In this document: piece by piece, positions 14,644 to 42,393 of the stretch
Layout of the letters: each line of letters starts with the position of its first letter
Position numbering within the stretch: the stretch's first letter is position 1
IMG/VR virus record: IMGVR_UViG_3300010160_000074
Span: 1 to 47,708 of that record
DNA: 47,708 bases
Source of the DNA: a virus
Direction: 5' to 3' (one strand)
Notes under the pieces: generated by a model
Seen by the model: only the letters and a program-made list of their open reading frames with translations
What the model was told of the DNA's origin: nothing
Databases searched by the model: none
Position numbers and translations under genes: made by a program

Positions 14644-14646
14644 ATC

Positions 14647-17600
14647 TTAGAAGAACGCAAAAAAGTTTCCAAGATAAACACTGCCCGGTGCAGTAAATAT
14701 CCAACCAAGATTGTTGCTGACGTTGGTTGATGTTGTGCCTGCATACCATCCTGCGCCGCCGGTGGCAATAGAATCTCGGATACTCAAATAACCAACACTT
14801 ACTGTACCCGATGCTTTGCTCAAAGTAGTTTGAGTTCCTGGGGCACTGCTGTTGATTGTTACCAAACTGCCCAGCACACCACTCAAAGTAAAATCAGCGA
14901 ATGTCTGAGTAGAACTTGCTGTGAAAGTAATCGTGCTGGGTCTTGTGGTTGCTGTTAGATCACTCAACGAATTATCGCCCGATATGGTCAACGCACCGGC
15001 ACCACCTTGATTCAGCGTTGAGTATGAGCCTCCTCCGCCAGCAAATGTTTTTGCTGTGGCCGCTGTCATACTGATAATCAATCCAACTATTGTTATACCA
15101 GTAGCAGATGCATTAGAAAATGCAGTAGCGCCTGCTCCGGTTATGGTGTATGTGCCCGATCCGGTCATGGATCTGGTCAGCGTACCGGTACTTGCAAACG
15201 TGGCACTGGATACTGCATAGGTCAAACAAGCCAGTGTTCCTTGTGTGAGTGTGAGAGCACCACTCAAAGTGAGTGCGCCAGCCAAGGTTGCGGTACCTGT
15301 GGTGTTGACGATCAGTGTGGGTAGTGTTTTGCCGTTGGTGGTAATGGTACCTGTGCCTACCATGGTCGGAGTTAAGTTGGTAAATGTACCACCGGTGGAC
15401 AATGTTAGTCCGTTCAAGTTCAATGCAGTCGCTGCGATAGTAAACGCTGTTGATCCAAAATCCAAGGTGTTGAACCAGCTGGCTGTGGTTATTGTAGCAA
15501 TGGCTGTGCCGGTACCGGTCAGTGTTAGATTGGGTGATATGGTCGCAGATCCACCTGTAGTTCCAAAAACATAGGTCCTGGTGACTGTTGCATCTGCGGC
15601 AAATCCGCCTGTTCCTGTGTAGGTGAACGCCGTGGCGATGGCCATGTTCAACACCGTGGTTGCTGCTGTGGTATGAGCCAGCACAATGTTGTTTGTGCCG
15701 AACGCAACGGATCGTGTGTTGGTGTTGTCAGAACTAAAAATACCAGTGGTCAAGTCAAACCCGCCAAGATCAAGAGTACCGGCTGTTAATGTAAACGTAC
15801 TAACGGCGGACATTGCAAATGCAGCACCCAATGTGATAGTTCCGGTGGTATTAACTGTTAATGCCGTCAGTGTGGTATTGCTATTACTGGTAAGAGTACC
15901 TGTACCCAATAGAGTTGGTGTTAGAACTGCAAAAGAACCACCACTTGATAATGTCAAACCGCCCGCTATGTTTAGTGCTGTGCTTCCTGGGTTGAATGCT
16001 GTGGTTCCAAAACTTAAATTTTTAAACCAACTGGCACTGGTGAATGTTTGTACTGCTGTGCCACTACCAGTCAATGTCAAGTTAGGTGCTGTGGTCAATG
16101 ACCCGCCGGATGCAGTGCCAACCGAATAAGTTCTAGTGACTGCCGCAGTTGCAGTGAATCCACCTGTACCTGTAAAAGTGAATCCAACGACAGTGGCCAT
16201 GCTCAATACAGTTTGTGCTGCTGTGGTATGAGCCAGCACAATGTTGTTTGTGCCAAACACAATTGACCGAGTTGTTGCACCGGAAGAACTAAAGATACCA
16301 GTGGTCAAGTCAAACCCGCCAAGATCAAGAGTACCGGCTGTTAATGTGGTTGTGCCAGTGGCAGCCAAAGCGAATGCAGCACCCAATGTGATAGTTCCTG
16401 CTGAGGCGTTGATTGTTAATGCCGCCAGTGTGGTATTGCTATTACTGGTAAGAGTACCTGTACCCAATAGAGTTGGTGTTAGGGTCGTGAATGTGCCACC
16501 ACTTGATAATGTCAAACTACCGTATATGTTTAGTGCTGTGGTTCCTGGGTTGAATGCAGTGGTACCAAAACTTAAATTTGTAAAAAAGCTGGCAGTGGTG
16601 AATGTTTGTACTGCTGTACCACTACCCGTGAGTGACAAGTTGGGGTATTGGGCACCTGTTATAGCTAATGTACCAAACGTATAAGTTCTAGTGACTGTTG
16701 CATCTGCGGCAAATCCACCTGTACCTGTATACGTAAAACTACTAGCAGTGGCCATGCTCAATACAGTTTGTGCTGCTGTGGTATGTGCAAGATTGATAAG
16801 ACCGGTAAAAGGATTTAAAGATACCCCAGTTATGCTACCGTTATTGGTAGGTGTGTAGTTGTTGGTCGAACTATCTGCCAATATATTAGCCCCGGTCACG
16901 GTATTCAACAATATGCTGGTCTGAGTACCTGTGATAGCAGATATATTGGTACCCGAACTTTGAGTCGCAGTCAATGGTGCTGTAGGAACTGCAAAGTTTC
17001 CTGTGTAAACTGCCACACCAGTTACCCAACGGAAATTAGAAATGTACCCAGTGTAGTGCGATCCAGGAAAACTATTGCCCGATGTTCCTACCCATAATGT
17101 GTTGGTAGGAAAGTTGATAGCACCGCTGTATGTGGCCGTGGCATTAAGCACCCCATTGATATACATGTACAATGCATCAGTACCCACTCTCACCAAGGCT
17201 ATGTGTGTCCAGGCATTTTTAATGTAATTACCTGTGCTGGCCAATAGGTTTGAGGTAGTTCCGGCTCCGCCCACTCCACCTGTTAACCCAGCCAAATAAA
17301 ATCCATATTGATTGGTTATACCAAGACCAGAATGCCCTACAAAAAATGCCATGTCTCCAGTCTGGCCTCCGTCGTTACTGGTGCCAAAAACAGCAGGAGC
17401 GGTCTGTACTTGAGTGGGAGTGTATAGCCAAAACTCCACTGTGAAAGGTTGATTGGCGGTCACCTGTATGTTGCTGTTTATAGCATAGCTGGCATATTGA
17501 GTGCTGCCGTTAAATGACGCAGAAGTTCCAGGAGTTGATCCACCAAACGCAATAGACCGTGTGTTGGTATTGCTAGAACTAAAAATGCCAGTGGTCAAAT

Positions 17601-20600
17601 TATAACTATTCAGAGCCAGTGTGCCACTGGTCAATGTGGTAGTACTAGTGGCAGCCAAGGACAGCGGTGCTGCTAATGTGGTGGTCCCTGAAGTGCTGTT
17701 GATTATTAATGATACTAATGTAGTATTATTATTACTAGTAATAGTACCTGTGCCCAACATGGTTGGAGTCATGGTAGTATATGTACCAGTTGCAGACAAT
17801 GTCAAGTCACCGGCAATGTTCAATGCAGTGGTTCCTGGATTGAATGCAGTGGTACCAAAATTTAGATTATCAAACCAACTGGCCGTGGTCAATGTGGCCA
17901 CGCTAGCCCCTGTGGTAAATGTCAAACTAGGTGCGTTAGTCACCGAACCGCCGGCGGTTGCACCAAAGTTGAATGTTCTTGTATTGCTCATGGCGGCAGC
18001 AATAAATCCACCTGCGCCAGTGAGAGTGAACCCAGTGGCTGTGGCCATACTCAGAACCGTGGTTGCAGCAGTGGTATGGGTGAGATTTATATTTCCTGCA
18101 GTTGTGCTACCAAATCCAATTGAGCGTACACCTGCTCCTGTTGAACTGAATATTCCAGTGGTTAACACAACACCATCGGCCAATGTCAATGTGCCGGCAG
18201 TCAACGTGTATGTTCCAGTTACTGTTAATGCATAGTTTTTGTTAAATGTTGCAGTACCTGCAGTATGAGTGAATGTAGGTACTGCACCTAGTGTGGCTGT
18301 GCCGCCATATGTGAATGATCCAGTGGTCAGCACAAAACTGGTACTAGGATTTATTGTGCCGCTTGAGAAGCTAAAACTTGGGCCATTGATTGTGAATGTG
18401 GTACAGGCCAATGTTCCAAAATTTGAAAATGTACCGCCAGTGTATGTCACAGCAGCCGAACAGGTCAGATTGTACGTCGCAAAATCCAATGTACCAGCGG
18501 TCATGGCAAATGTTGTGCAATTTGCTGCACTTCCCATGGTGACCGTAAAAGTGGTATTGATTGTTAATGGGCCAAATGACGCGCTGTTAAAAGTGTATGT
18601 AACATTGGCCTGCGGTACTAGAGTCAGTGTAAGGTAGGCCCCTGTTGCCGACAATGTCACACTATTAACTATATTTAATGAGGTCGTTCCTGGATTGAAA
18701 CTGGTTGTACCAAAAGTTAAATTTTTATACCAACCACCGGTGGTCAATGTTGCTACACTAGCACCTGTAGTAAATGTCACGTTTACAGCGTTTGCGGTCG
18801 ATCCGCCTGTGGTTCCGAATGTTAATGTTCGGGTGTTGGCCATGTCCGCAACTGTGAATCCACCCGGACCTGTGTACGAGAACCCAGTGACTGTGGTCAT
18901 GGCAAGAACCACTGTGGCTGCTGTGGTATGCGTGAGATTGATGTTTCCTGCACTTGCACTACCAAATGCAATTGAGCGAGTATTTGAATTATTAGAACTG
19001 AATATACCTGTAGTTAATGTGACCCCATCTGCTAATGTCAATACTCCGGCAGTTAATGTATAAGTGCCAGTAACTGTTAAAGAATAACTACTATTAAATG
19101 TTACCGTACCTGCTGTATGTGTAAATGTTGGAACCGGCGATAGTGTACCACCATTGAGTGTGAATGACCCTGATGTTAATACAAAACTGGTGCTGGGAGT
19201 TATTGTTCCAGTTGTGAAGTTAAATGCTGGACCATTGATCGTGAATGTTGTGCAATTGAGAACACCACTGGCAGTGAGTAAACTTCCGCCGTTGTAGGTA
19301 AATGTGCTTGAGCAAGTGAGTGTGTTGCCTGCAAGATCCAGTGTGCCCAGGGTCAATGCGGCTGTGGTACATAATGTGGTACCTGCCAAGGTGGTTGTGA
19401 TAGCAGAGGTGTTGATAACCAAGGGACCAATGGATGTGTTTGTACGGATTGATCCGGTCCCCACCATGGTGGCTGTTAAAGCTGTAAGAACACTGGTACT
19501 CAAATTAGATTTCAACGAGCTTAAATTAAGATTGGTTGCTGCGATGGTAAATGCTGTGGTTCCAAAATCTATTTCTCTAAACCAACTGCCGCTGGTTATT
19601 GTTGGGACAGAGGCACCGCTGACCAGATAAAGTATTGGAGCATTAGCTGCTGTACCTGAGGCGCTGGCTGTACCAAAAGTAAATGTTCTTGTGGTACTCA
19701 TTGTGGCCTGGAAGCAACCTGTTCCTGATCCAAATGTTCCACTGCTTGTATAAGTAAATCCAGTAGCAGTTGCCATACTTAATACAGTTTGTGCAGCGGT
19801 AGTATGTGCTAGTATAATATAGTTTGCACCAAACGCAATTGAACGAGTATTAGCATTAGTTGAACTGAATATACCAGTAGTTAAATCATATCCATTAAGA
19901 GATAATGCACCGTTAGTTAATGTAGTAGTCTGTGTTGCACCAGTTGTTAATGCGCTAGTCAAACTCCATGCACCGCCTACTCCATTGAATGTAACACTAC
20001 CATTTAATGCAGTGCCGTTTGTTGTTATCGTTTCACCGGCGGTTCTAGTAGAATTGAATGTAGTTGTGCCAGTGCTATTCCATACAGTACCTGCTATCAA
20101 TGACATAGAACCGGACACAGCAAGAGTAGGTGTAGTACCAGTTGCGAATGTAACCGTACCGGCACTTACAGTTAAATTATAACAGGTCAATGCACCTGTC
20201 ATAGTGACAGTATAAGTACCTGCTTGGTCAAAAAATACAGGGTCGTTTGCTGTTGGGACTTTTGCACCACCTACTCCACCTGAGGTTTGTGACCAATTAG
20301 TTGTAGTACCGGTATTCCATGTTCCTGTTCCACCTACCCAATAACGACCGCTTGGTATGACTGCGATAGCAAGAGCAGAAATATTATGTAAATTAGTAAT
20401 AGTTGCTGTTCTAGCAGTACTATTACCTGATGCGGCTTGTGTCTCATCAACAACAAATATACCGTTGACCGCAGTAGTGGGGTTTGAAGTGACTCTACTT
20501 GTTGTAGGCGAGGGAGCCGCGCCCCAAGTACCGGCTACATTATCAGCGACCCAAACACTAATTTCACAATCATTAGTTGAAGTATTTCCAGTCTGTCCAG

Positions 20601-20934
20601 GTGCTAAACTAGTGCCGCTTGCTGTATTAGTGATACCACTAATAGTATCAATTGCGGCCGCCCCTCGATAGGCTAGCATGACTGCACTAGTTGTGGTGCC
20701 GAGTAAAGATAATGTTACAGACGATTCTGAACTAGTAGCAAATTTAGTTAGAATAGTTAAAAATCCATTAGAACCTTGTACCGACCTTGCTGTCCAACCA
20801 GAAGGTGTTGCGGGCGTAGCCGTACCAGTAGTAACGATTATTAATAAGTCTTTTTCAGCATAACCTGCAGGAACTGCAACAGTGGGATTGTCTCCTGTAG
20901 CTACAGCACTAGAAGCGACGAATGTTACTGCCAT
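14647..20934 (-). CDS. Giant beta-repeat adhesin/fibre with LamG domain
   Basis: 2095 residues, the last of the fibre row, and different in style from the other five. The N-terminal 200 residues form a unique domain, then RYWVGGTGTWNTGTTTNWSQ starts long Thr/Ser/Gly repeats resembling filamentous beta-helix adhesins. Recurrent blocks are LTTGIFSS..TRSIAFG, HTTAAQTVLSMATATGF and SFGTTAFNPGTTALNI. In the C-terminal third the repeat is exactly 555 bases (185 residues): anchors at 15671, 16226 and 16781. A LamG/ConA-like domain occupies about 1135-1378 (FNGSTQYASY, FTVEFWLYTP, WTHIALVR). The extreme C-terminus (NNLGWIFT, YLGNFFAFF) is a tail I recall in marine phage proteins. Probably a host-binding or decoration fibre; receptor unknown. 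AAGGAT ribosome site. Confidence 0.8.
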   Translation of the reverse strand: MAVTFVASSAVATGDNPTVAVPAGYAEKDLLIIVTTGTATPATPSGWTARSVQGSNGFLTILTKFATSSESSVTLSLLGTTTSAVMLAYRGAAAIDTISGITNTASGTSLAPGQTGNTSTNDCEISVWVADNVAGTWGAAPSPTTSRVTSNPTTAVNGIFVVDETQAASGNSTARTATITNLHNISALAIAVIPSGRYWVGGTGTWNTGTTTNWSQTSGGVGGAKVPTANDPVFFDQAGTYTVTMTGALTCYNLTVSAGTVTFATGTTPTLAVSGSMSLIAGTVWNSTGTTTFNSTRTAGETITTNGTALNGSVTFNGVGGAWSLTSALTTGATQTTTLTNGALSLNGYDLTTGIFSSTNANTRSIAFGANYIILAHTTAAQTVLSMATATGFTYTSSGTFGSGTGCFQATMSTTRTFTFGTASASGTAANAPILYLVSGASVPTITSGSWFREIDFGTTAFTIAATNLNLSSLKSNLSTSVLTALTATMVGTGSIRTNTSIGPLVINTSAITTTLAGTTLCTTAALTLGTLDLAGNTLTCSSTFTYNGGSLLTASGVLNCTTFTINGPAFNFTTGTITPSTSFVLTSGSFTLNGGTLSPVPTFTHTAGTVTFNSSYSLTVTGTYTLTAGVLTLADGVTLTTGIFSSNNSNTRSIAFGSASAGNINLTHTTAATVVLAMTTVTGFSYTGPGGFTVADMANTRTLTFGTTGGSTANAVNVTFTTGASVATLTTGGWYKNLTFGTTSFNPGTTSLNIVNSVTLSATGAYLTLTLVPQANVTYTFNSASFGPLTINTTFTVTMGSAANCTTFAMTAGTLDFATYNLTCSAAVTYTGGTFSNFGTLACTTFTINGPSFSFSSGTINPSTSFVLTTGSFTYGGTATLGAVPTFTHTAGTATFNKNYALTVTGTYTLTAGTLTLADGVVLTTGIFSSTGAGVRSIGFGSTTAGNINLTHTTAATTVLSMATATGFTLTGAGGFIAAAMSNTRTFNFGATAGGSVTNAPSLTFTTGASVATLTTASWFDNLNFGTTAFNPGTTALNIAGDLTLSATGTYTTMTPTMLGTGTITSNNNTTLVSLIINSTSGTTTLAAPLSLAATSTTTLTSGTLALNSYNLTTGIFSSSNTNTRSIAFGGSTPGTSASFNGSTQYASYAINSNIQVTANQPFTVEFWLYTPTQVQTAPAVFGTSNDGGQTGDMAFFVGHSGLGITNQYGFYLAGLTGGVGGAGTTSNLLASTGNYIKNAWTHIALVRVGTDALYMYINGVLNATATYSGAINFPTNTLWVGTSGNSFPGSHYTGYISNFRWVTGVAVYTGNFAVPTAPLTATQSSGTNISAITGTQTSILLNTVTGANILADSSTNNYTPTNNGSITGVSLNPFTGLINLAHTTAAQTVLSMATASSFTYTGTGGFAADATVTRTYTFGTLAITGAQYPNLSLTGSGTAVQTFTTASFFTNLSFGTTAFNPGTTALNIYGSLTLSSGGTFTTLTPTLLGTGTLTSNSNTTLAALTINASAGTITLGAAFALAATGTTTLTAGTLDLGGFDLTTGIFSSSGATTRSIVFGTNNIVLAHTTAAQTVLSMATVVGFTFTGTGGFTATAAVTRTYSVGTASGGSLTTAPNLTLTGSGTAVQTFTSASWFKNLSFGTTAFNPGSTALNIAGGLTLSSGGSFAVLTPTLLGTGTLTSNSNTTLTALTVNTTGTITLGAAFAMSAVSTFTLTAGTLDLGGFDLTTGIFSSDNTNTRSVAFGTNNIVLAHTTAATTVLNMAIATAFTYTGTGGFAADATVTRTYVFGTTGGSATISPNLTLTGTGTAIATITTASWFNTLDFGSTAFTIAATALNLNGLTLSTGGTFTNLTPTMVGTGTITTNGKTLPTLIVNTTGTATLAGALTLSGALTLTQGTLACLTYAVSSATFASTGTLTRSMTGSGTYTITGAGATAFSNASATGITIVGLIISMTAATAKTFAGGGGSYSTLNQGGAGALTISGDNSLSDLTATTRPSTITFTASSTQTFADFTLSGVLGSLVTINSSAPGTQTTLSKASGTVSVGYLSIRDSIATGGAGWYAGTTSTNVSNNLGWIFTAPGSVYLGNFFAFF
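15671..17335 (-). repeat. Three 555-bp coding repeats
   Basis: The anchor GTATG(A/T)GC recurs at 15671, 16226 and 16781, exactly 555 bases apart, and the sequence between anchors corresponds block by block with synonymous and conservative changes. The third unit is interrupted by the LamG insertion. Boundaries are approximate. Confidence 0.7.
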
Positions 20935-20969
20935 ACTTTATCCTTGAGCTACCTATTTTATCAATGCCA

Positions 20970-23900
20970 TTAGAATCCAAAGTTCTTGGCCAATATTTGC
21001 CATTTTGTAGCAGTGGTGTTGTATATAAATCCTACATAATCATATTTACTGCTACCACTGGATGCAGTAGGCAAACTTAGATCTGTTGAACCGGCAAACA
21101 CTGCATTCCAAGAAAAAGTCTGCACATTTGATGATTGCAATCTAAACATGATTTTTTGTCCGTTTGTCAAAGTGCCGGTTGGAGCATTGATTGTCAATAT
21201 GCCTGCCACCTGAGTGTTTGTTTGTGTGGCAAGATCTGTGGTGTCAGCATTGATGGTGACTGATGTGCCATCTGCGATTGACACCGAGCGTGACACTATG
21301 CCGCCACCAGTGATAATATTACCTGTTATAGAGACCGTAGCACCGGTTAGAGTTGTGGCGTTAACATTGGCACCGCCCAAGATGTTGCCGCCTGTGATAT
21401 TACCTGTCACACTAACGGTTGTACCTGTTAGCGTTGTAGCATTCACGTTGGCACCACCTAGCACGTTGCCACCTGTGATGTTGCCGGTCACACTAAGACT
21501 TGTTCCGGTTGCAGCACCGATATTGGGTGTGGTCAGTTGTGCGCTGGCTTTGACAACAATATTGCCAGTGCCGTCAAATGCAGTACTGATGTTGTCAGTT
21601 TTTGCACTGAACACGGTTCCGTTTAGTACTAGACCGGCTGAGGTGTTGGCAGAAAATGTACCAGCGCCCGAGAACTGGGTAAACACAATTGGACTGGTGC
21701 CCAAGGTAGGGTTGTCTGTGGTTTGCACCCAACCGGTGTCTGCTAGTGTGGCACCCGAAGTCACAAACAAAAAGTCGCCACCAGCAGCTTCAGCCGAAGT
21801 ATCAAAATCCGTGCTTCTAGTCAATAAACTGCTGCTGGTATAATTATACATGCCATTTTGTACAGCATTGCCCTGATTTTTAATCAACAGCCTAGTGCTG
21901 GCAGGTGCTGGAATGGCCGTGCCGTCCAGTGTGGTCAGTGTGTTGCCCACAAGACTCAATGTGGCTCCTACCCCACTCGAACCGTTGTTGTAGGTAACGG
22001 TAGCACCGGTGTATGTGGCCAAATCTGCAGTGGATGCCAAGTTGGCCGAATCGTGTATGTGCAAACCTTGTGCCACTAAATCAACATATGCTTTGGTTGC
22101 TGCGTCTTGATCTTGAACCGGCGTTGACAATCCATTGATGTAGGTGCCAACTACAATATTACCGGTTGTGCTTAGAGTCAGGTCACCAATTGATTTTATT
22201 GTAGTAGCTGTGCCAACTACGGTGTTGGTATTGACATTACCACCTGTGACGTTGCCGCTGGCGCTGACCGAAACTGCTGATATTGCCGCAGGCGTGATTA
22301 TGTTGCCACCTGTGATGTTGCCACTGGTGGATATTGGGTTGGTACCAAACACGGCTAAATTGGCAGCAACATTAGCATTGCCATAGCTTGGAGCGATACC
22401 GGTCAGTTGTGATCCGTTACCAATGAAGTAATTGCCAGTGATGTTACCTGTAGTAGATATTGGGTTGGTTCCAAATGCTGCCAAGTTAGCCGCAACATTT
22501 GCGTTGCCGTAAGTTGCTGGAAGCCCAGTCAGCTGTGATCCATTGCCGATGAAGAAGTTGCCTGTAACATTGCCGGTTGCAGACACTATGCCACCTGTCA
22601 ATACATTTCCACCTGTGGCATTGCCAGTCACTGCCAAACTACCCAGCGTACCTACTGAGGTGATATTGGTTTGTGCTGCTGTGGTCAATGTGCCCACTAT
22701 GCTGGTACCACTTAGGTTACCACCAGTGATGTTACCGGTTGCACTTACTATTCCACCTGTCAATACATTACCACCAGTTACGTTTGCACTCACACTCACA
22801 GTGGTACCTGTATGTGTGGTAGCATTCACATTAGCACCACCCAAGATATTACCGCCGGTGATGTTACCAGTAGCCGATACAATACCACCTGTCAATACAT
22901 TACCACCTGTTATATTAGCTACTGCACTTAATCCAACATTTGACGTAAACGTATTTGCTGAACTGTTGTAAAGGAATGTGACATATGGGCTGCCTTGAGG
23001 ACCTAGCTCAATGCCACCATTGTTCACTTGAGTTATGTTGGAGGCATTGTTTCCTAAATTGATTGCCACATCGTTGATAGTGACCACGTTACTGCTAATG
23101 TAGGTTACATTACCTGCCACACTCAAATTGCCAGTGAATATTGCGTTGTTAGCAGTGATATTGCCAGTAGCACTGATCACTCCGTTGGTTAGCAAATTAC
23201 CTGCTGTGATGTTGCCACTAGTCGATATGGGATTTGTTCCAAATGCTGCCAAGTTGGCTGCCACATTGGCGTTGCCGTAAGTTGCAGCAAGTCCAGTCAG
23301 TTGCGAGCCGTTACCAATGAAGAAGTTGCCGGTTACATTACCTGTAGCTGATACAATACCACCTGTCAATATATTACCGCCGGTAACATTAGCACTTACC
23401 GAAACAGTGGTACCTGTGTGAGTGGTAGCATTTACGTTGGCTCCGCCCAGGATGTTGCCAGCAGTGATATTACCCGTGGTAGATACAGGATTGGTTCCAA
23501 ATGCCGCCAAGTTGGCTGCCACATTGGCATTGCCATAACTAGCTGCAATGCCTGTGAGTTGCGAGCCGTTACCAATAAAATAGTTGCCGGTTACATTGCC
23601 TGTGGCCGACAATGTACCAGTTACCATTATAGAAGTCGATTGCCAGGTACTACCATCATATATCAACGTTCCTTGGGCACTAGTAACAAGAACCGATGAT
23701 GTTGAAGTCACCACGGTATTGTAATTTGTGATTGTCAGTGCCTGCGACGAGTTGTCTATAATGGTACTATTTTGTAAGGTTAATAATTTTGTTTGTCCAG
23801 CAGTGAGTGCTGCGCTAGGAGAACCATTTACATTGGCCAATTGATTTGGTGTTAGCGGTGTGGTGCTGGGAGTAAATGCAGATGTGTAAACTCCTACCCC

Positions 23901-25601: not shown

Positions 25602-25602
25602 T

Positions 25603-25626
25603 ACCTACTACTTATGATTAGTAGGT
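25603..25626 (-). promoter_or_regulatory. Hairpin coupling two fibre genes
   Basis: Transcribed strand ACCTACT and AGTAGGT pair (7 bp) around a 10-base loop. The 5' arm runs into the stop codon of the 1503-codon fibre (25618-25620) and the 3' arm is the ribosome site (AGTAGGT) of the 1543-codon fibre. A ribosome terminating upstream would open the stem. No late promoter is seen here. Confidence 0.55.
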
Positions 25627-30129: not shown

Positions 30130-30152
30130 GTCAATAACTTCCTATTCAGACT

Positions 30153-30160: not shown

Positions 30161-31322
30161 ATGTTCCACCTATAACAATCTGGTCGTTATTTACGATTCT
30201 AATCCAATCAGTCCAAGTTGCATTCCAGTTTGCGCGATTCCATTGTATTTTTATATCGCCACTTTCCACAGTGCCTGGATAAAATATCTGTTCAATTGAC
30301 GTATCTGTGCTGTTTTTTACTTCGAGCAGCCCTGTAAATACCTGACTATCTAATGGTGTTCCTACCGTTCCCGACCAGCTGGTTCTGTTGACTGTGTAAA
30401 CACCCATCTGTATTAGAGTGTTCCAGTTATTCTGATCATTGCCACGATCTGTCATTGTGCTGAGCAATGCAGCACCATTGCCTACAAAGTTAGTACCACT
30501 TGTGACATTTCCTGCTACGCTAGCAGTTCCAGTCACGGTCAAGTTTCCAACAACATTGCCGCTTGCACTAGTCACAATGCCGGTCAGCGCCGCACCATTA
30601 CCTACAAAATAATTTCCTGCCACGTTGCCTGTAGCGGAGATATTTCCGGTAACTTGTGCGCCGCCAGTAGAAAATACAGCGACATTACTGGTTCCATCCA
30701 CACTTATAGTAACATTACCGTCAGTGCTTACTACCTGTACATTTGATGTACCGTCGCTGATGTATGTGGGATCTACTCCGTAGGTACCCACATATCTGTA
30801 GCCAACAATGTAGATACTTTTGCCAGTGACCCCAGTTGCAATCTGGCTTGGAATATTTGCACCATTGAAGTTCAACAAGCCTGCTTGATAGTCAAAGAAC
30901 CATGTGTCATCATTGCCCGAGCCAGCAGCAAACAATTTTGTGCCCACGGTCTGTGGATTGCTCACACCAGATGCTGCCACATACACTTGCACCAAGTAGT
31001 TGTCACCAAACTGGGTAGGAACCCAGTTGGCCAGGCCAGTTAACCAGGTTTGATTGTCTGGAGCAGTTAAATCTTCTGTACATTCCACGGTGGCACTATA
31101 TCCTGCACCTCCGCCATCTTTGTACACCTGGATCAACGCAGTGGTGTTAGCCGGAGGAGTGTTGGGAATATCTCCACTTTGGGTCCAAATCAAATCTCCA
31201 CGATAGAGTAATGGACTAGCAATGCTTTCGTTGAAAGCTTCTTTGCTGGCGGAATCAGCAGTTTTGGCTACACCATAACCTACTTTTTTCCACAGATAAT
31301 CTAATTTTTGTGCATCTGACAT
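30156..31322 (-). CDS. Short fibre/baseplate-linked protein with pyocin-knob-like end
   Basis: 388 residues, the smallest of the fibre row. The N-terminus (AQKLDYLWKKVGYGVAKTAD, then NESIASPLLYRGDLIW) is a domain I recall in cyanophage tail proteins, probably for baseplate attachment. The middle (about 60-200) is a beta domain, then a brief GN-repeat stretch (NISATGNVAGNYFVGNGAAL), then at about 290-380 a pyocin-knob-like fold (WNTLIQMGVYTV, EQIFYPG, IKIQWNR, WTDWIRI). Pyocin-knob domains bind glycans or seat other fibre parts. The ATG is one base after the upstream stop (TAATATG) with no ribosome site, so it depends on coupling. Confidence 0.75.
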   Translation of the reverse strand: MSDAQKLDYLWKKVGYGVAKTADSASKEAFNESIASPLLYRGDLIWTQSGDIPNTPPANTTALIQVYKDGGGAGYSATVECTEDLTAPDNQTWLTGLANWVPTQFGDNYLVQVYVAASGVSNPQTVGTKLFAAGSGNDDTWFFDYQAGLLNFNGANIPSQIATGVTGKSIYIVGYRYVGTYGVDPTYISDGTSNVQVVSTDGNVTISVDGTSNVAVFSTGGAQVTGNISATGNVAGNYFVGNGAALTGIVTSASGNVVGNLTVTGTASVAGNVTSGTNFVGNGAALLSTMTDRGNDQNNWNTLIQMGVYTVNRTSWSGTVGTPLDSQVFTGLLEVKNSTDTSIEQIFYPGTVESGDIKIQWNRANWNATWTDWIRIVNNDQIVIGGTY

Positions 31323-31323
31323 A

Positions 31324-34300: not shown

Positions 34301-35916
34301 GCAGTCCATCCTTGATATGCCACTGTGTTTCCTGTTAGGCTGCTATCTGAAGGGGTGCCTAATATTGTGGTATTGCCACTACCGCCGGATGCAATAACTC
34401 CAGTAAGTTGTGATCCGTTACCAACAAAATAATTACCCGAGATGTTGCCTGTGGTAGATATCGGATTAGTACCCAGAGCTGCCAAGTTAGCAACAACATT
34501 AGCATTGCCGTAACTAGATGCGATACCGGTAAGCTGTGATCCATTGCCCAGTATGTAACCACCAGTGATGTTACCACTAGTGGATATTGGATTGGTACCA
34601 AACACAGCTAGATTAGCAGCCACATTAGCATTGCCATAAGATGCTGGCAGTCCGGTCAGCTGTGAGCCATTACCAATAAAATAATTGCCGGAGACATTAC
34701 CTGTGGCTGATACTGATCCGATTGTGCGAACATTGCCACCAGTGATATTGCCCGAGACTGATACATTGTCGCTGAGTGAAAATTTGATTTGCTGCGGAGT
34801 AGACAGCGCATTGGTGGTTATAACAATGTTGTTACCATCAACAAATTTTACGGTATCTTCACCTACTGCAACTAGACTGGTCTGGCCGGCAACTTCCCAA
34901 GTCTTGAACGAACTGCCCAGTGTGATCAGGGCATTGCCGTTGCCCATGTCAGTGACACTAAATCCAGTGGTGGTATCAAACAGCAATCCGTGTACATTAG
35001 GAACAACATTGGATATGTTACCAGTGGTATACTGGCTTACGGTCAGCACATTGGATAACTGACTACCGTTGCCCAGTAGGTAGTTGCCCTTGACATTACC
35101 TGTGGCGCTGACTAGGCCTGTTACATATTCGCCGGTACTGGCAAATGTTGCAACCGTAGAACCTGCAACACCAATAGTGATATTACTGCTGGACGCAACC
35201 GTGACATTACTTGTGCCATTGGCGATATTTGAAGTACTACCACTGGCAATACCAGTGAGCAATGCACCATTACCGATAAAATAGCTACCAGCAATGTTGC
35301 CTGTGGTGGATATGGGATTGGTACCAAATGCAGCTAGATTAGCAGCAACATTGGCGTTGCCATAACTATTGGTTGCTATAATCCCGGTCAGCTGTGAGCC
35401 ATTACCAATAAAATAGCTGCCGGTGATGTTGCCCGCTGCTGAGATGTTGGTGTTGAATGTGGTATTGGTATCACCAAACGTGACCACATTTCCGGTGCCA
35501 GCAACACCTATCGTAACTACGCTGTTGGCTGATACACTTACATTGCTGTTGCCATTAACAATAGCAGTTCCGCCACTGACCGTTATGCCTGTGAGTAAAG
35601 ACCCGTTGCCTACAAAGTATGTAGAATAAACCGTGTCAAATCGTGTAGCCGGTGCGCCAAGGTCGTAGACTGCATCTATAGAAGGAATAATCGAGCTGTT
35701 GGCTTGTACATTGCCAACCCCATTGCCCTTGAGTACTAGATTGTTGTTTCGCCCCAGGACCGTGATAACATTTCCTGCTATGGAAACATTAGTCCCTACC
35801 GGGCCGGCAGCGTATAATTCGGTAAAATTTTCATTTACTGATATAAAAGCACTGCGTAATGCCTCACCGGTACCATCATTTGATGTGTTACCGGTGTTGA
35901 TGATCTGTTGTGTCAT
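31324..35916 (-). CDS. Tail fibre protein with PKD-like domains
   Basis: 1530 residues. The N-terminus IINTGNTSNDGTGEALRSAF, then VNENFTELY, is a widespread phage fibre start. GN-repeats with FIGNGSQLTGI follow to about 560. Residues about 575-950 hold several Ig-like PKD-type domains: YLWQFGDGTANVITA, FNWGDGTVSNV, WAWGDSTFSNG, each followed by H-(T/A)-(F/Y) and a strand. The C-terminal 230 residues (FTFAFARPSLANFDIRL, GLWIAAPNTTID, GWLEGFVQYSGSG, NNILVRIALASGQTIT) form a distinct globular tip that I associate with marine phage fibres and would expect to contact the receptor. No ribosome site; the start lies after a hairpin with a late promoter in its loop. Confidence 0.82.
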   Translation of the reverse strand: MTQQIINTGNTSNDGTGEALRSAFISVNENFTELYAAGPVGTNVSIAGNVITVLGRNNNLVLKGNGVGNVQANSSIIPSIDAVYDLGAPATRFDTVYSTYFVGNGSLLTGITVSGGTAIVNGNSNVSVSANSVVTIGVAGTGNVVTFGDTNTTFNTNISAAGNITGSYFIGNGSQLTGIIATNSYGNANVAANLAAFGTNPISTTGNIAGSYFIGNGALLTGIASGSTSNIANGTSNVTVASSSNITIGVAGSTVATFASTGEYVTGLVSATGNVKGNYLLGNGSQLSNVLTVSQYTTGNISNVVPNVHGLLFDTTTGFSVTDMGNGNALITLGSSFKTWEVAGQTSLVAVGEDTVKFVDGNNIVITTNALSTPQQIKFSLSDNVSVSGNITGGNVRTIGSVSATGNVSGNYFIGNGSQLTGLPASYGNANVAANLAVFGTNPISTSGNITGGYILGNGSQLTGIASSYGNANVVANLAALGTNPISTTGNISGNYFVGNGSQLTGVIASGGSGNTTILGTPSDSSLTGNTVAYQGWTANTYVTDGLDDLNQVALNIAGNTFVGNTYITSNVYAGPSPLSVSLTGRYIGNPNSYLWQFGDGTANVITANATHTFSNTLGGTYTVTYTAYNTTGTNAGNAAAGAKGSTSTATTTITLYTPTPIPAFTANRTSLDTPNGVQITNSSQYSETYSINWGDGTIVIPATNWTTAAHVYTNATANTDVLYGVNLTGNSANAGASPVSVTSSNTNVKVYSSQASNVFVTANVANVINGVGTISFRNDSTGNPGNTASFGAQQLYNFNWGDGTVSNVNIATGIAGNPAAANVTHAFALSAANQSGNKYEQYTANLYLYTGYSTSPFKSSNITITIEPQTRANFVGATANVTTDATANVGNARVGYLYTDYNGANRSTFTFQNTSENSNIANWAWGDSTFSNGVSNVGNVVHTYTTTGAKTVSLTANGTPNGITSTAQSNTSSVTGYIFIAANPAAPTNLSGYANLTIANASQFTNAPLLAAGATDASGGNIPANGTSVTRFVTSTPIMTSANVVLANTATTGTLTAYVNNAAAGNVTFTTSGNTVGTTSALVIAADQDLHVANAAVPSSFYKVFSANISCALGNLSTGYNNYKLSHTVSGNTNYVGFVKDNLNSVPTLATGNVVMAEATAGTYRYISGIPYYNTGSPTITIANLQVANLAGQTFTSTNPFILDSGTVSEGSGSVVAASQTKSLAGIDNAANSMLTSSNVKANIGVGSNYILGNLTANLGGTNNSVSTLQANILNVVGTSATVQLPTKIQMYAGANSGVNEQSITASTTGNTQAAVRVVMSSAGNTPVFANTINYYTSNVWSGAQTIANTPEAVVRYGNLTNYIVNLSTGYLPVGPNLAVGGNRTSTQYFTFAFARPSLANFDIRLTSTTGIAGLWIAAPNTTIDRSGYSSPVPGFPGPTSTINGWLEGFVQYSGSGVPGASNTGGNGSNGCALTGADVIPLNTSIANVSYTMTLGSQNAANSFGNNILVRIALASGQTITALSIGTAT

Positions 35917-35924
35917 GAGAGTTA

Positions 35925-35957
35925 CTAGGGGTGTAGTATATTTACCAACACCCCTAG
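35925..35957 (-). promoter_or_regulatory. Ten-bp hairpin with a late promoter in its loop
   Basis: CTAGGGGTGT (35925-35934) pairs with ACACCCCTAG (35948-35957). The 13-base loop contains GGTAAATA (35939-35946, minus strand), the same octamer as before gp13 and gp19. Late transcripts would start at the 3' arm and lose the hairpin; read-through RNA from the 2137-codon gene would keep it. There is no T-tract. Confidence 0.65.
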
Positions 35958-35979
35958 AACCAAAATTACATGAATGATT

Positions 35980-38900
35980 TTATAGTCTACCCACTACCAC
36001 TTGGATCACGCCCGACTCGCCTTGGTAATCTTCCAAGGATTTGCCGATCACGGTACCAATTGTGGGTGATGCACAGGCTTGCGCATGCCCGTTTCCAGCG
36101 GAAATCATCATGGCACCTTTCCACACAGAACCAGTGACTCGGGTGGGTACTCTTCCGGTCAAGGCCACTGCTACCACATGCTCGCCCTGCTGTGACGAAT
36201 TCATTATGTGAGCTGGATTGGTACTAACCACGCCGGCTACACGGTCACTATTTTGGGTATTGCTGATGGTTATTTCATGTGCGCCGCCAAACTCCATCAC
36301 GGTGCCAGGTTCGTACTCAGCATCACTTACATACATCTCGGCCAAGTCAGCATATTGTGCCGATGTTGCTTTAGCAAACACCGTGTTAAATGCAACGGTA
36401 GACGAACCAATATTACCAGTACCAGTTGTGGCACCATTGGTGATTGCTATGGTTGCATTGTTGATTGTCAAGCCAGTTAGTGTGCCTACACTGGTAATGT
36501 TGGTCTGTGCAGCAGTGGTCAATGTGCCCACAATGCTGGTGCCAGAAAGATTGCCGCCAATGATGTTACCTGTGATACTGAGCCCACTGGAACCACCTTG
36601 ATACCCGGCAGCACTAATGTTTCCTGTTAATACTGTTCCTGCTGCACTCACGGTACCGGTTGATGATATTGACCCACCTGTCAATAAATTACCACCAGTG
36701 ATGTTGCCAGTTACATTCAAGCTGGTCAATGTGCCCACTGAGGTGATATTGCCCTGTGCTGCACCACTTACTGTGGCAGCATAACTCGAAGTAGGAATAC
36801 TCAATGTGCCTGTTACATTGGCACCTGGGATACTAGTGAGTCCAGCACCGGATCCATTGAATTGGCTTCCTGTGACTGTGCTGGTCACACTCACAGTGGT
36901 ACCTGTGTGAGTGGTAGCATTCACATTGGCACCACCTAACACATTACCACCTGAGATATTGCCGGTTACCGCTAAACTGCCCAATGTGCCCACACTGGTA
37001 ATGTTGGTCTGTGACGCAGTGGTCAGCGTACCCACGATACTAGTACCTGACAGATTGCCAGCAGTAATGTTGCCGGTCACTGCCAAACTGGTCAATGTAC
37101 CCACACTGGTAATATTGGCTTGGGCAGCACCACTTACTGTGGCAGCATAACTTGAAGTAGGAATACTTAATGTACCTGTTACATTAGCGCCAGGTATGCT
37201 GGTCAATCCAGCGCCAGATCCATTGAATTGCGATCCAGTCACAGTGCTGGTCACACTCACTGTGGTACCTGTGTGAGTGGTAGCGTTGACGTTGGCTCCA
37301 CCCAATATGTTGCCACCCGAGATATTGCCCGTGACTGTCAAGCTACCTAAAGTACCAACTGAGGTGATATTGGTCTGACTGGCAGTGGTCAATGTGCCCA
37401 CGATGCTGGTACCCGAAAGGTTGCCGCCACTAATGTTGCCAGTGACTGCTAAACTGGTTAATGTACCTACGCTTGTAATATTAGTTTGTGCAGCAGTGGT
37501 CAATGTACCCACAATGCTAGTGCCACTTAGATTGCCACTGGTGATGTTACCAGTGACTGCTAAACTAGTTAATGTACCTACCGAAGTGATACTACCTTGT
37601 GCAGCGGTAGACAAGGTACCAGCAATACCGGTCACGCTTAGGTTACCACCTGTGATGTTACCGGTAACGCTTACATTAGCGCCAGTTGTGACATTACCAA
37701 TTCCATTTGGAGTCAATACAATATTGGCATTGGCAGTAGTGGTGCTGATAGTCATTGTAGAACCAGTGACTACCGGTGTGATTACATTACCACCTGTTAC
37801 ATTACCACTAGCACTGACATATCCGTTTATGGCATAACCTGATGGATTTATGTTTCCAAGTGCTACATTTCCTACTACTACTATTATGTTAGCGCCCGAT
37901 GATTGAATAGACATCGACGTGGTACCATTGGCGATTGTGGTTACCGATACGTTAGCAGCCGCAGTCACGTTACTGAGGAATCCTCCGTCGCCCACAAAAA
38001 ACGCTCCAGCTTGAACATTGACATTACCGGTAGAACTGATCTGACCTATGGTGCGCAAATTACCACTATCGATGTTGCCAGACACGCTGATCGAAGTACC
38101 TGTGTATCTTGTGGTGCTTATATTGCCGCCAGTGATATTACCTGTTGCACTGATCAGTCCACCTGTTAATAAATTACCGGCTATGACGTTGGCAGTTGCC
38201 GAAATTAGCCCACCTGTTAGTAAATTGCCGGCAGTGACGTTACCACTGGCACTCAATGTGGTAGGAGTCAATGTACCAATTATGTTACCACCATAGATGT
38301 TACCAGTTCCACTAATAACACCAGATCCAAATAATATATTACCGCCAGTGATGTTACCGGCCACGCTGAGTGCTGTGCCAGATGTGTTGGCGATTGATAC
38401 CAAAGTATTGGCAGAGAATGTGACATTACCATTGCCGGCGGCAGTTCCAATACTGATGTTGGTGACGGAATTGGCAACTCCGTTTTCACCAATACTGATG
38501 GTTTTTGTGTTGCCAGTGGAAGTGGCACCATTGGCAAGGTACAATATTTGTGTGGCAGTAGATCTGCCCAGAGCTAGAAAACCTGTTTGTGCAGTTCCTC
38601 CAACTGTCCAAGTCCCCGTGGTCATTGAGCCATCTGTCCAGTTTTGAGTTGTGGCTGTGCGGGTGAATGCCGAACTGGTCATGCTCACGGTGCCCGACAT
38701 GGTCGTAGTACCAGTTGCAGTCAATGCAGCAGTTGATATGTTACCACCAGTGATATTACCTGTGGCTGAGATCAATCCGCCGGTTAACAAGTTTCCGCTG
38801 GTGACATTGCCGGTAACACTGACCAATCCACCTGTGTAGCTGGCAGCATTAACTATTGTAGTAGCAAGAACATTGTTGGCTGCTATATTACCAGATATGC

Positions 38901-41900
38901 TCAAGTTACCACCTGTAACATTGCCGGTCGCTGATACATTACCGGTTACGCTAAGTCCAAAAGCATGCTTGAATCTTCCAATTTCGTTGGCAGTATCACT
39001 ACCATTGGTACTAAACACAATGTCCTTGGCAGTGTAAGTGCTGAGCACTAGATTGCCGCCACCTGTTGTGACATTGCCGGTCACATACAAATACCCATCA
39101 TTGGCGGTGGTCAGTGCATAGCCTGGTTGATTGTAGGTCGAGCTATTGATACCCATACTAACAAAACCATCGGTATCATTACCATTATCTGCCACTGCTA
39201 CAATATCTGTTGTTGCGGCCAGACCACTTGATTTATTCTGTACTATTAATTGTACATAGCTATTAGCGGTAGCAGCAGCTTGAACTGGAGCAGTCAGTGG
39301 AGCAAAACTCATTGCAGCACCAGCAATCACATTTCCATCGGCAATCAAATTTCCAGCGGTTTGTAAATTGCCGCCAATGATGTTGCCGATCGCTGTGATC
39401 AATCCGCCTGTGTTGACATTACCACCTGTTACATTTCCTGATGCACTTACTGATGCAGCACTAACCGCTGCGGTAGTGATAATATTACCACCGGTTACAT
39501 TACCAGTGGCACTGATCAGGCCACCTGTCAATACATTACCACCTGTGATGGTACCGGTTACTGATACCGTGGCTCCTGTATGTGTGGTTGCGTTGACATT
39601 GGCACCACCTAGCACGTTGCCACCGGTGATGTTGCCAGTTACACTGACAGTGGTACCTGTGTGCGTGGTTGCGTTGACATTGGCACCACCTAGCACGTTG
39701 CCACCCGAGATGTTGCCTGTTACTGCCAAACTAGTTAGTGTACCAACTGAGGTAATATTGGTTTGTGCCGCAGTGGTCAGCGTACCCACAATGCTAGTAC
39801 CAGTTAGGTTACCACCGGTAATATTACCAGTAGACGAGATCAATCCACCTGTTAATAAATTACCACCTGTGACGTTGGCACTGACCGAAACTGTGGTACC
39901 TGTATGTGTGGTTGCGTTGACATTGGCACCACCTAGCACATTGGCTGCTGTGATATTACCGGTTGCTGAAATCGCACCACCGGTTAATATGTTACCACCA
40001 ATAATATTTGCACTGACCGATACTGTGGTACCGGTTAAACTGGTTGCATTCACATTGGCTCCGCCTAACACGTTGCCACCGGTGATGTTGCCAGTTGTGG
40101 TGATTGTGTTTGCGCCGGCAGCAATGGTGCCTATGACGTTACCACCAGTGATGTTGCCGCTTACACTCAGACTAGTCAGTGTACCTACTGAGGTTATATT
40201 GTTTTGTGCTGCTGTGGTTAATGTGCCTACAATGCTGGTACCAGTTAGGTTACCACCGGTGATGTTGCCAGTTGCAGATATTAATCCACCTGTTAATAAA
40301 TTACCACTTGTGGTGTTACCGGTTACTGCTAAACTGGTCAACGTGCCCACTGAAGTTATATTGGTTTGTGCTGCTGTGGTCAGTGTACCCACAATGCTGG
40401 TACCAGTTAGGTTGCCACCGGTGATGTTGCCAGTTGCGCTGATTAGGCCACCTGTTAATACATTGCCACCTGTTACGTTTGCACTTACACTAACTGTAGT
40501 ACCAGTAAACAAAGTAGAGTTAACATTAGCACCGCCTAATACATTTCCTGCAATGACATTTCCTGTGCCGGTGATATTGCCACTACCAAATATTACATTA
40601 CCACCTGTGATGTTGCCAGTTACTGAGACCGTGGTACCTGTGTGAGTTGTGGCATTCACATTAGCACCACCTAACACATTACCGCCTGTGATGTTACCTG
40701 TAGCACTTACTTGACCAGCAGTCAATATGTTTCCGCCTGTTACGTTTGCACTAACACTAACAGTGGTTCCTGTGTGTGTGGTTGCGTTGACGTTGGCACC
40801 ACCTAATACGTTACCACCTGTGATGTTGCCGGTTGCTGAAATCAAGCCTCCTGTTAATACGTTTCCGCCGGTGACATTGCCGGTTGCTGAAACCAATCCA
40901 CCGGTCAGCAAATTGCCGCCGCTGATATTACCAGTTGTGGTAATAGGATTTGCTCCGGCAATGATAGCACCAATAATGTTGGCGCCAGTGATGTTGCCCG
41001 ACACACTTATTAGTCCACCTAGTATATTACCAATGCCGCTGACATTACCTGCACCAAATAGTATATTTCCACCGGTGATGTTGCTTGACACACTGACCGT
41101 AGTACCAGTCAAAGTAGTTGCATTGACATTGGCACCACCTAGCACGTTACCTGCTGTGATGTTACCGGTTGCACTAATTGTTCCGGTTGTTCGTAAATTT
41201 CCTGCTTGTACGTCTGAGTTTGCTATTAGATAGCCGCCAGTGATATTGCCTACTGCGTTTATCAACCCAGTAGAAAGTAAATTACCACCTGCTACGTTGC
41301 CTACTACACTCAGTCCAGCTGCACTGGAAAAAACAGCAACCGATGTAGGAGTTATTGCGCCAACGGCTGTGGTGAATATCTGTACGTTGGTAGCTCTGCT
41401 GGTATCTGAGAATGCTTCGGCGGCTGTGATGTCCAATCTGCCGGTTGATACATTACCAAATTGTAATGTACCACTGCTGAATCCACGTGCTGTGAATTGG
41501 GCTAATGTGTCTCCAGGTTGTGTTCCAGTAGGAGCAGTTCCAGTTCCGCCAGCAGTTCTTCCAGTGAATGCACTATACGATCCTGATCCAAATGCATCTT
41601 GTGTTATTCTAGTATTAGCACCATCCGCGCCCGAAATATGTAAATCAGTTCCTGCTGTGGTGCTGTTGCCTGTGATTGAGTAGACCACGCTCTGAGGAGT
41701 GGCCAATATGGTCACTTCACAATCTGGAGTGGTTGTTCCGACCGCTAGATTAGCACCGGTGATGTTACCGGTTGCTGAAATTGTGCCTGCGGTACGTAGA
41801 TTACCACCTTGGATGTTGCCTGTTGCTGATATTGTGCTGCCGGCCGATATCAGTCCAGCTGTCAATATGTTTCCGCCTGTTACGTTTGCACTTACACTTA

Positions 41901-42393
41901 CAGTGGTACCTGTGTGTGTGGTTGCGTTGACATTGGCGCCGCCTAACACGTTACCGCCAGTGATATTACCTGTGGCACTTACCTGGCCGGCAGTTCGTAG
42001 ATTACCGCCCTGCACGTTACCGGTGACCGTTATTAATCCAGCAGTTGAAATATTACCGCTGGTTAGGTTGCCTGTTGCACTAATAGTACTAGCTGTGGTA
42101 ACTGCTCCACTAATATTAGCAGTACCGGTGATATTGGCACCAGTTGAAGTAAACACAGCTACATTACTGGTACCGCCCACGGTGATATTAGCGTTGCCAC
42201 TGGCTAGAGGAATCCCAAGATTTGTAGTACCGTTAGTCAGTGCTGTGGCCGAAAGATTACCAGTTATGGTAGCATTTCCAGATACCGTGAGGTTTCCACT
42301 TACAACTACTGTACCACCTTGCAAAGTGATTGCATCAGATGCTGTAACGGTTTGTATGGTAAGATTACCGAGCACACGCTTGAAAGTAGACAT
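35980..42393 (-). CDS. Largest tail fibre, GN-repeat type, DLAE/peptidase-G2-like C-terminus
   Basis: 2137 residues. The N-terminus (FKRVLGNLTIQTVTASDAIT, then VVVSGNLTVSGNATITGNL) is a common fibre start. The body is the purest run of repeats in the window: units of 17 (VLTGGLISATGNITGGN), 27 and 37 residues. Three non-repeat modules interrupt it at about 217-361 (DLHISGADGANTRITQDAFG), 1034-1144 (VADNGNDTDGFVSMGI) and 1241-1331 (TATTQNWTDGSMTTGTW). The end, about 1995-2137 (YADLAEMYVSD, EPGTVMEFGG, RVAGVVSTNPAHIMN, VALTGRVPTRV), resembles the peptidase-G2/autoproteolytic chaperone-like C-termini of phage fibres; self-cleavage is not shown. A TATAAATA promoter, AAGGAA ribosome site, and ATG directly after the previous TGA. 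Confidence 0.85.
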   Translation of the reverse strand: MSTFKRVLGNLTIQTVTASDAITLQGGTVVVSGNLTVSGNATITGNLSATALTNGTTNLGIPLASGNANITVGGTSNVAVFTSTGANITGTANISGAVTTASTISATGNLTSGNISTAGLITVTGNVQGGNLRTAGQVSATGNITGGNVLGGANVNATTHTGTTVSVSANVTGGNILTAGLISAGSTISATGNIQGGNLRTAGTISATGNITGANLAVGTTTPDCEVTILATPQSVVYSITGNSTTAGTDLHISGADGANTRITQDAFGSGSYSAFTGRTAGGTGTAPTGTQPGDTLAQFTARGFSSGTLQFGNVSTGRLDITAAEAFSDTSRATNVQIFTTAVGAITPTSVAVFSSAAGLSVVGNVAGGNLLSTGLINAVGNITGGYLIANSDVQAGNLRTTGTISATGNITAGNVLGGANVNATTLTGTTVSVSSNITGGNILFGAGNVSGIGNILGGLISVSGNITGANIIGAIIAGANPITTTGNISGGNLLTGGLVSATGNVTGGNVLTGGLISATGNITGGNVLGGANVNATTHTGTTVSVSANVTGGNILTAGQVSATGNITGGNVLGGANVNATTHTGTTVSVTGNITGGNVIFGSGNITGTGNVIAGNVLGGANVNSTLFTGTTVSVSANVTGGNVLTGGLISATGNITGGNLTGTSIVGTLTTAAQTNITSVGTLTSLAVTGNTTSGNLLTGGLISATGNITGGNLTGTSIVGTLTTAAQNNITSVGTLTSLSVSGNITGGNVIGTIAAGANTITTTGNITGGNVLGGANVNATSLTGTTVSVSANIIGGNILTGGAISATGNITAANVLGGANVNATTHTGTTVSVSANVTGGNLLTGGLISSTGNITGGNLTGTSIVGTLTTAAQTNITSVGTLTSLAVTGNISGGNVLGGANVNATTHTGTTVSVTGNITGGNVLGGANVNATTHTGATVSVTGTITGGNVLTGGLISATGNVTGGNIITTAAVSAASVSASGNVTGGNVNTGGLITAIGNIIGGNLQTAGNLIADGNVIAGAAMSFAPLTAPVQAAATANSYVQLIVQNKSSGLAATTDIVAVADNGNDTDGFVSMGINSSTYNQPGYALTTANDGYLYVTGNVTTGGGNLVLSTYTAKDIVFSTNGSDTANEIGRFKHAFGLSVTGNVSATGNVTGGNLSISGNIAANNVLATTIVNAASYTGGLVSVTGNVTSGNLLTGGLISATGNITGGNISTAALTATGTTTMSGTVSMTSSAFTRTATTQNWTDGSMTTGTWTVGGTAQTGFLALGRSTATQILYLANGATSTGNTKTISIGENGVANSVTNISIGTAAGNGNVTFSANTLVSIANTSGTALSVAGNITGGNILFGSGVISGTGNIYGGNIIGTLTPTTLSASGNVTAGNLLTGGLISATANVIAGNLLTGGLISATGNITGGNISTTRYTGTSISVSGNIDSGNLRTIGQISSTGNVNVQAGAFFVGDGGFLSNVTAAANVSVTTIANGTTSMSIQSSGANIIVVVGNVALGNINPSGYAINGYVSASGNVTGGNVITPVVTGSTMTISTTTANANIVLTPNGIGNVTTGANVSVTGNITGGNLSVTGIAGTLSTAAQGSITSVGTLTSLAVTGNITSGNLSGTSIVGTLTTAAQTNITSVGTLTSLAVTGNISGGNLSGTSIVGTLTTASQTNITSVGTLGSLTVTGNISGGNILGGANVNATTHTGTTVSVTSTVTGSQFNGSGAGLTSIPGANVTGTLSIPTSSYAATVSGAAQANITSVGTLTSLAVTGNITAGNLSGTSIVGTLTTASQTNITSVGTLGSLAVTGNISGGNVLGGANVNATTHTGTTVSVTSTVTGSQFNGSGAGLTSIPGANVTGTLSIPTSSYAATVSGAAQGNITSVGTLTSLNVTGNITGGNLLTGGSISSTGTVSAAGTVLTGNISAAGYQGGSSGLSITGNIIGGNLSGTSIVGTLTTAAQTNITSVGTLTGLTINNATIAITNGATTGTGNIGSSTVAFNTVFAKATSAQYADLAEMYVSDAEYEPGTVMEFGGAHEITISNTQNSDRVAGVVSTNPAHIMNSSQQGEHVVAVALTGRVPTRVTGSVWKGAMMISAGNGHAQACASPTIGTVIGKSLEDYQGESGVIQVVVGRL
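36719..37450 (-). repeat. 366-bp tandem duplication in the fibre gene
   Basis: The block beginning at the CACCACTTACTGTGGCAGCA element (36762) recurs at 37128, 366 bases (122 codons) later. The two copies encode nearly the same peptide (GSQFNGSGAGLTSIPGANVT and following) but differ at many third positions. Outer limits are approximate. Confidence 0.75.

Follow-up and report, generated by a model that had tools for sequence, protein, structure and literature searches.

Conserved adjacent domains point to a probable composite fibre in a row of six fibre-like genes of a T4-related phage

How do the products of six consecutive fibre-like genes, 9,196 residues in all, work together in one phage? 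The question is raised by IMG/VR virus record IMGVR_UViG_3300010160_000074, whose complete 47.7-kilobase (kb) sequence of 47,708 nucleotides (nt) is called the window here; it comes from a large bacterial virus that environmental DNA alone has revealed. An original prediction had described six minus-strand genes at positions 14647-42393 and read them as a multi-armed or modular adhesion apparatus with several baseplate positions. All six open reading frames (ORFs) were confirmed at these coordinates, spanning 27,747 nt, or 58% of the window. We refer to them, in gene order, as f2137, f1530, f388, f1503, f1543 and f2095 (Table 1). We consider it reasonably likely that the row encodes modular receptor-binding appendages, with at least one composite fibre jointed by the C-terminal TIP domain of f1530 and the N-terminal LDY (LDYLWKK) domain of f388, and with recombination in the shafts exchanging blocks. 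The TIP-LDY junction is the most useful new point, as it reaches well beyond the window.

A conserved junction between two fibre genes

The gene for f388 begins 1 nt past the f1530 stop. In the metagenomic loci fetched for f388, TIP was encoded in the gene directly before LDY in 80 out of 80, and LDY directly followed TIP in all 78 testable loci fetched with TIP, the two sets overlapping in part. Both domains correspond to known profiles (TIP to phrog_8578, E=6.3e-55; LDY to phrog_9417, E=4.2e-37). Among 50,697 phage records searched by tblastn, 50 contained TIP and 52 contained LDY, with agreeing organism tallies. The two LDY-only records were both of Atu_ph07, where TIP was retrieved by a hidden Markov model profile search, giving the same 52. 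Among the carriers are Dolichocephalovirinae that infect Caulobacter and Brevundimonas and have non-contractile tails, as well as Salicola phage SCTP-2, Sinorhizobium phage Phosso and Agrobacterium phage Atu_ph07.

The idea of a joint predicted a domino order beforehand, and no exception was found among the ten phages examined. Seven (CcrSC, CcrColossus, Bajun, Domovoi, Kabachok, Phosso and Atu_ph07) have a three-gene form, with TIP in the first gene, LDY plus TIP in the second and LDY in the third; phiCbK, SCTP-2 and the window have the two-gene form. A repeated origin of the three-gene form is suggested by gene trees, but their support is not firm.

The conservation profile of the pair is uneven. 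Over 58 complete pairs, the median identity to the window was 22% for the first 60 amino acids (aa) of f1530, 70% for TIP, 76% for LDY and 11% for the last 100 aa of f388. The varying end of the pair is the C-terminus of the LDY protein. TIP probably does not serve as a variable receptor tip, because tips should vary and TIP is the most conserved part of f1530. In phages that have no GN-repeat shaft like that of the window proteins (phiCbK, Atu_ph07, SCTP-2), the pair is still present at ~30% identity, and the TIP genes of relatives carry at least five N-terminal classes.

Two side observations concern these genes. In Caulobacter phage RBC57 (L279) and in BL57 (PQ287320), the annotation divides the TIP gene among several ORFs, and the gene was matched in two pieces, which could be either a real break or the result of sequencing frameshifts. 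A protein of 207-234 aa (MITLFHAIQSLVPGAEVSV... type), perhaps a fibre chaperone, follows one class of LDY genes at 13 of 13 junctions; the window is without it.

Exchange of blocks and turnover of fibre genes

Across 118 non-redundant complete fibre ORFs from the window and its relatives, we distinguish 15 N-terminal and 17 C-terminal classes, joined in 35 different combinations. The most reused C-terminus is that of the f2137 type, which is paired with about ten N-terminal classes. The predicted modularity is borne out by these shared shafts and differing ends in the module table; one baseplate position for each N-terminus is not.

Fibre content turns over within the lineage. The relative G002 is ~84% identical in DNA on the tail-side flank and 74-87% on the capsid side, and has two fibre genes (1,322 and 2,591 aa) versus six in the window. 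It is without f388, f1503, f1543 and f2095, and its second fibre protein combines an f1530-type N-terminus with an f2137-type C-terminus.

DNA blocks aligned to six relatives (L007, L008, L009, L010, L012 and L191) run from f1530 aa ~486-499 into f388, continuing in four of the six into f1503 aa ~66-69; one further block extends from within f1503 to f1543 aa 62. The breakpoints lie in or at the edge of shafts, and what is exchanged is often the last part of a gene together with the first part of the following gene, a pattern that would be expected of recombination between similar shafts.

A proposed composite fibre and its alternatives

We propose that the row encodes the appendages with which a T4-related myovirus, probably of jumbo class, binds its receptor. 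The large proteins would each be a modular fibre, presumably trimeric, in which a short N-terminal piece for attachment is followed by a GN-repeat shaft, whose length varies, and by a C-terminal piece. Most likely, f1530 and f388 are segments of one composite fibre, in which the C-terminal TIP and the N-terminal LDY would touch to form an inter-segment joint. LDY more likely docks on the preceding fibre segment than on the baseplate, and f388 would be the outer segment, whose variable C-terminus would meet the receptor. Recombination in similar shafts would swap blocks made of the end of one gene and the start of the next, so that repertoire and tips could turn over quickly while matched joints stay together.

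A second composite fibre may be formed by f1543 and f2095, as an f1543-type C-terminus lies directly before an f2095-type gene at all seven non-redundant junctions. Similarly, knob-type C-termini precede IKRS N-termini in six of six cases, and f1503-type C-termini in four of five. For f1543-f2095 and for the C-termini preceding IKRS genes, linkage is just as good a reading, since these junctions were found in no distant phage. A five-segment chain (f1530-f388-f1503-f1543-f2095) was considered and rejected, as the numbers are small and linkage explains them equally well.

Several points weigh against a composite fibre of f1530 and f388. Contact between the proteins at the joint is a prediction from gene data, and conserved adjacency can also stem from linkage. 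The LDY protein of phiCbK has only ~45 residues past the domain, unlike a receptor tip. AlphaFold models of f388 (predicted local distance difference test, pLDDT, 45; predicted template modelling score, pTM, 0.34) and of TIP (pLDDT 53, pTM 0.38) are too poor for fold claims. Foldseek searches with them returned only chance matches to antibody fragment (Fab) and receptor chains in the PDB (template modelling score <0.2 on the query) and, among viral models, mainly the sequence homologues.

Shaft recombination could in itself keep TIP and LDY genes linked, and the two proteins then need not touch. The blocks in near relatives have exactly the end-of-gene plus start-of-next form that goes with this explanation, and other junctions of the row are likewise kept. 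Yet the pair is kept in the distant phages that have no GN shaft, and domino copies occur in three-gene forms. Moreover, many different N-termini follow the f2137-type C-terminus, so not all junctions are fixed. We therefore regard linkage alone as an unlikely explanation for TIP and LDY, though one to be taken seriously.

Another question is whether the fibres, or at least the one with TIP and LDY, are carried on the capsid as head fibres or filaments rather than on the tail. The start of the row and the major capsid gene are ~5 kb apart. The TIP-LDY genes of phiCbK-type phages are located between the capsid genes and a giant protein proposed as the phiCbK head filament (PMC3556154), and the whiskers of Atu_ph07 are mostly capsid-associated (PMC6102473). 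However, the position of a gene is only a weak guide, the opposite flank of the row holds tail-side genes, several annotations among these proteins read tail protein, and in Atu_ph07 a long distance separates the pair (gp324-326) from the capsid gene (gp215). The phiCbK virion proteome comprised eight detected proteins, the giant protein not among them (PMC3556154). Atu_ph07 gp324-326 lie within cluster 284-329, which is rich in virion proteins detected by mass spectrometry, and the adjoining gp327 was counted among the detected tail fibres (PMC6102473). A head location is in our view a serious but improbable alternative. We hold it equally doubtful that capsid-borne adhesion filaments of large phages, contractile and non-contractile alike, share TIP-LDY as their base and that the row builds head appendages. 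If true, TIP-LDY would be a part that the head filament of phiCbK shares with the capsid whiskers of phages of the Atu_ph07 type.

In a reading taken from the original prediction, which named three N-terminal types, the six proteins would be separate arms, and each N-terminus would have a baseplate position of its own. We count five types, the IKRS type being common to f1543 and f1503, and f1530, f388, f2137 and f2095 each having their own. Five classes in six genes, with differing C-termini, would suit separate arms, but the IKRS type is shared by two proteins, and TIP genes in relatives come with at least five N-terminal classes. LDYLWKK in particular does not look like an adaptor for a baseplate position: LDY was never found without a preceding TIP, that is, an f1530-type C-terminus, and the pair is also present in non-contractile phages without a T4-type baseplate. 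Six separate arms thus appear quite unlikely.

Finally, an artefact of repeat assembly, which the repetitive proteins might suggest and which the original prediction had named as a risk, is highly improbable, except possibly within 21418-22122, since separate IMG/VR contigs reproduce 610-16106, 8649-21417, 22123-41322 and 41106-47708 at 99.97-100% identity, leaving these 705 nt as the sole part of the row with single-contig support, and the longest exact DNA repeat within the row is 65 nt. The sources of these contigs are known by number only, and the independence of their reads is likely, not proven.

Architecture of the six proteins

The gaps between the genes measure 63, 1, 26, 16 and 35 nt in gene order, which leaves no room for an extra gene. 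The statement that T4 has far less fibre coding was checked for its long fibre, in which gp34+35+36+37 = 2,908 aa. In relatives the row can be longer (at least 49 kb in G008), with single fibre proteins of up to 3,563 aa. The size of the row is remarkable compared with T4, but not unusual within its own lineage.

The protein f2137 starts with the N-terminus MSTFKRVLGNLTIQ, followed by a very long GN-repeat shaft (115 GN[IVLA] motifs) and a C-terminal domain with matches in phages that include PA5oct, Phosso, Atu_ph07 and Campylobacter phages. In f1530, an N-terminal NTGNTSNDGTG motif is followed by a GN shaft up to aa ~490-500, PKD domains and TIP. The variable C-terminal end of f388 covers aa 289-388. 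Both f1503 (aa 1-68) and f1543 (aa 1-61) begin with the IKRS-type N-terminus, continue with a GN shaft and have a middle domain in common; f1543 also has a LamG-like region (aa ~425-619). The protein f2095 is Thr/Ser/Gly-rich, repeated and adhesin-like, is unrelated to the GN shaft, could be made of beta-rich repeats, and contains a LamG lectin-like domain (aa 1150-1304). Only this LamG region is shared with f1543 (31% over 225 aa).

Five of the proteins had been said to share a repeat grammar. This is correct for f2137, f1530, f1503 and f1543, although in f1530 it covers only about the first 500 residues. In f388 it is limited to a stretch of ~100 residues, and it does not extend to f2095, with 2 GN motifs versus 25-115 in the four large proteins.

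Pfam and PHROG named none of the six as a tail fibre; the matches were to LamG, PKD and families whose function is not assigned. Sequence searches of the PDB with f388, f1530 and the alignments A1, A2 and A3 gave nothing usable. A match of f388 aa 120-213 to a gamma-lactamase (1hkh, E=1.5e-5) vanished with a profile and was discarded. A Peptidase_G2-like autocleavage domain at the C-terminus of f2137 and a pyocin-knob-like tip at that of f388 were considered; no tool confirmed either, and we claim neither. The middle domain of f1543 and f1503 (f1543 aa ~1139-1375) matches proteins whose annotations differ, being tail fibre in S-CAM9 and capsid decoration in cyanophage PSS2 and Mycobacterium phage Phrappuccino.

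Genome context

The source is a T4-related myovirus, with homologues of the gp18 sheath, gp19 tube and gp23 capsid proteins all present in the window. It is probably of jumbo class. Relatives' contigs reach 215 kb, the window itself being a 47.7-kb fragment, and the nearest named relatives of the sheath are those of Phosso (469 kb) and Atu_ph07 (490 kb), at 42-43% identity. The row is flanked by gp23, present as a whole gene in an overlapping contig, on one side and by gp3-type, head-closure, tube and sheath genes on the other. The same position, between capsid and neck/tail genes, was found in relatives' contigs. No tRNA was detected in the window by ARAGORN.

Further genes were noted around the row. 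Two adjacent tail-tube-like genes (1411-2589 and 2595-3236, minus strand) resemble the arrangement in Phosso, which likewise has two adjacent genes annotated as tail tube. A NUDIX hydrolase gene (14152-14643, plus strand) has a 73-nt overlap with the gp3-type gene's end, and SCTP-2 also has a NUDIX-like gene near its gp3-type gene. Adjoining the row are a TPR and glycosyltransferase-9-like protein (43992-45140, plus strand) and a weakly sialyltransferase-like protein (42394-42984, minus strand; CST-I E=0.026, phrog_4603 E=1.4e-4). Both genes recur beside the row in several relatives, and their products might modify the Thr/Ser/Asn-rich fibres. A 272-aa protein (MGRALKIQK..., 43033-43851, minus strand) also recurs there, and had no match in the 50,697 phage records, Pfam or PHROG.

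Table 1. Coordinates of the fibre-like genes, their domains and flanking genes (window positions, except the last row)
Feature	Position	Strand	Remarks
f2137 fibre-like protein	35980..42393	-	2137 aa; ORF call and repeat count
f2137 C-terminal domain, aa 1991-2137	35983..36423	-	alignment A3, module table, phage matches, phrog_22593
f1530	31324..35916	-	1530 aa
TIP domain of f1530, aa 986-1530	31327..32961	-	phrog_8578; most conserved part of f1530
f388, short fibre segment	30156..31322	-	388 aa
LDY (LDYLWKK) domain of f388, aa 1-183	30774..31322	-	phrog_9417
f1503	25618..30129	-	1503 aa
f1543	20970..25601	-	1543 aa
f1543 C-terminal domain, aa 1430-1543	20973..21314	-	directly upstream of f2095-type genes in relatives
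f2095	14647..20934	-	2095 aa
gp23 major capsid protein, C-terminal part	47356..47706	-	cut by window end; Pfam Gp23 E=1.1e-29
Tail sheath stabiliser-like protein (gp3 type)	12836..14224	+	phrog_11196, phrog_227; SCTP-2 homologue
Tail sheath, 1132 aa	3306..6704	-	nearest to jumbo phages Phosso and Atu_ph07
Post-LDY protein, 207-234 aa (relatives)	L169 7779-8432; L171-L172 (G005 167623-168327); L179 8641-9342; L182 (G012 44889-45512)		

Comparison with known fibre systems

In the long tail fibre of T4 (gp34-gp35-gp36-gp37), several consecutive genes make one fibre of proximal, connector and distal segments; the domino gene order speaks for a similar build in the row, with contact as a prediction. 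None of the row proteins matched gp34 or gp37 in Pfam or PHROG at E<=0.01. Compared with the T4 fibre, the row is far larger, has one joint type (TIP-LDY), which is duplicated in some phages, and lacks a gp38-like chaperone gene, although some relatives have the 207-234-aa gene after LDY. Large arsenals and N-terminal docking of fibre onto fibre are also known from jumbo or large phages, in the hyperbranched tail fibres of phiKp24 and K64-1/RaK2 and the branching tailspikes of CBA120/G7C. These systems use T4gp10-like docking domains and beta-helical depolymerases (PMC9700779); Pfam and PHROG profiles, the only ones used here, matched neither in the row. The row would work like the multi-gene fibre of T4 and the docking of phiKp24, G7C and CBA120, but we assign it to neither.

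The structural module of phiCbK-type phages (Dolichocephalovirinae) has the same adjacent TIP and LDY genes at ~33% identity, but a non-contractile tail and no GN shaft. In those examined (L275-L278, L003, L005), the LDY gene is followed by a gene of ~138 aa and then by one of ~2,110-3,020 aa, whose product is annotated as lectin-like in several and is the head-filament candidate in phiCbK. No window fibre matches this giant protein (gp76 type); f2095 and f1543 have LamG regions only. The jumbo myovirus relatives Atu_ph07 (gp326-gp325-gp324) and Phosso (gp123-124-125) have the three-gene TIP/LDY form, but their first two segments are short (690-717 aa) and without a GN shaft. Fibres of marine and freshwater phages (cyanophage S-CAM9, pelagiphage Mosig and Limnohabitans phage DC31), in which no comparable row was looked for, have only the f1543/f1503 middle domain in common (36-50% identity).

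Implications

TIP and LDY are filed under unknown function in PHROGs, and in isolates they are mostly annotated as hypothetical or tail proteins. They are two concrete targets for localisation among the appendages of phiCbK and Atu_ph07. The exchange of blocks made of the end of one gene and the start of the next suggests a way to shuffle the parts that recognise the host while matched joints stay intact. A joint shared across tail types, if true, would provide a starting point for understanding how adhesins of large phages are lengthened, branched and swapped.

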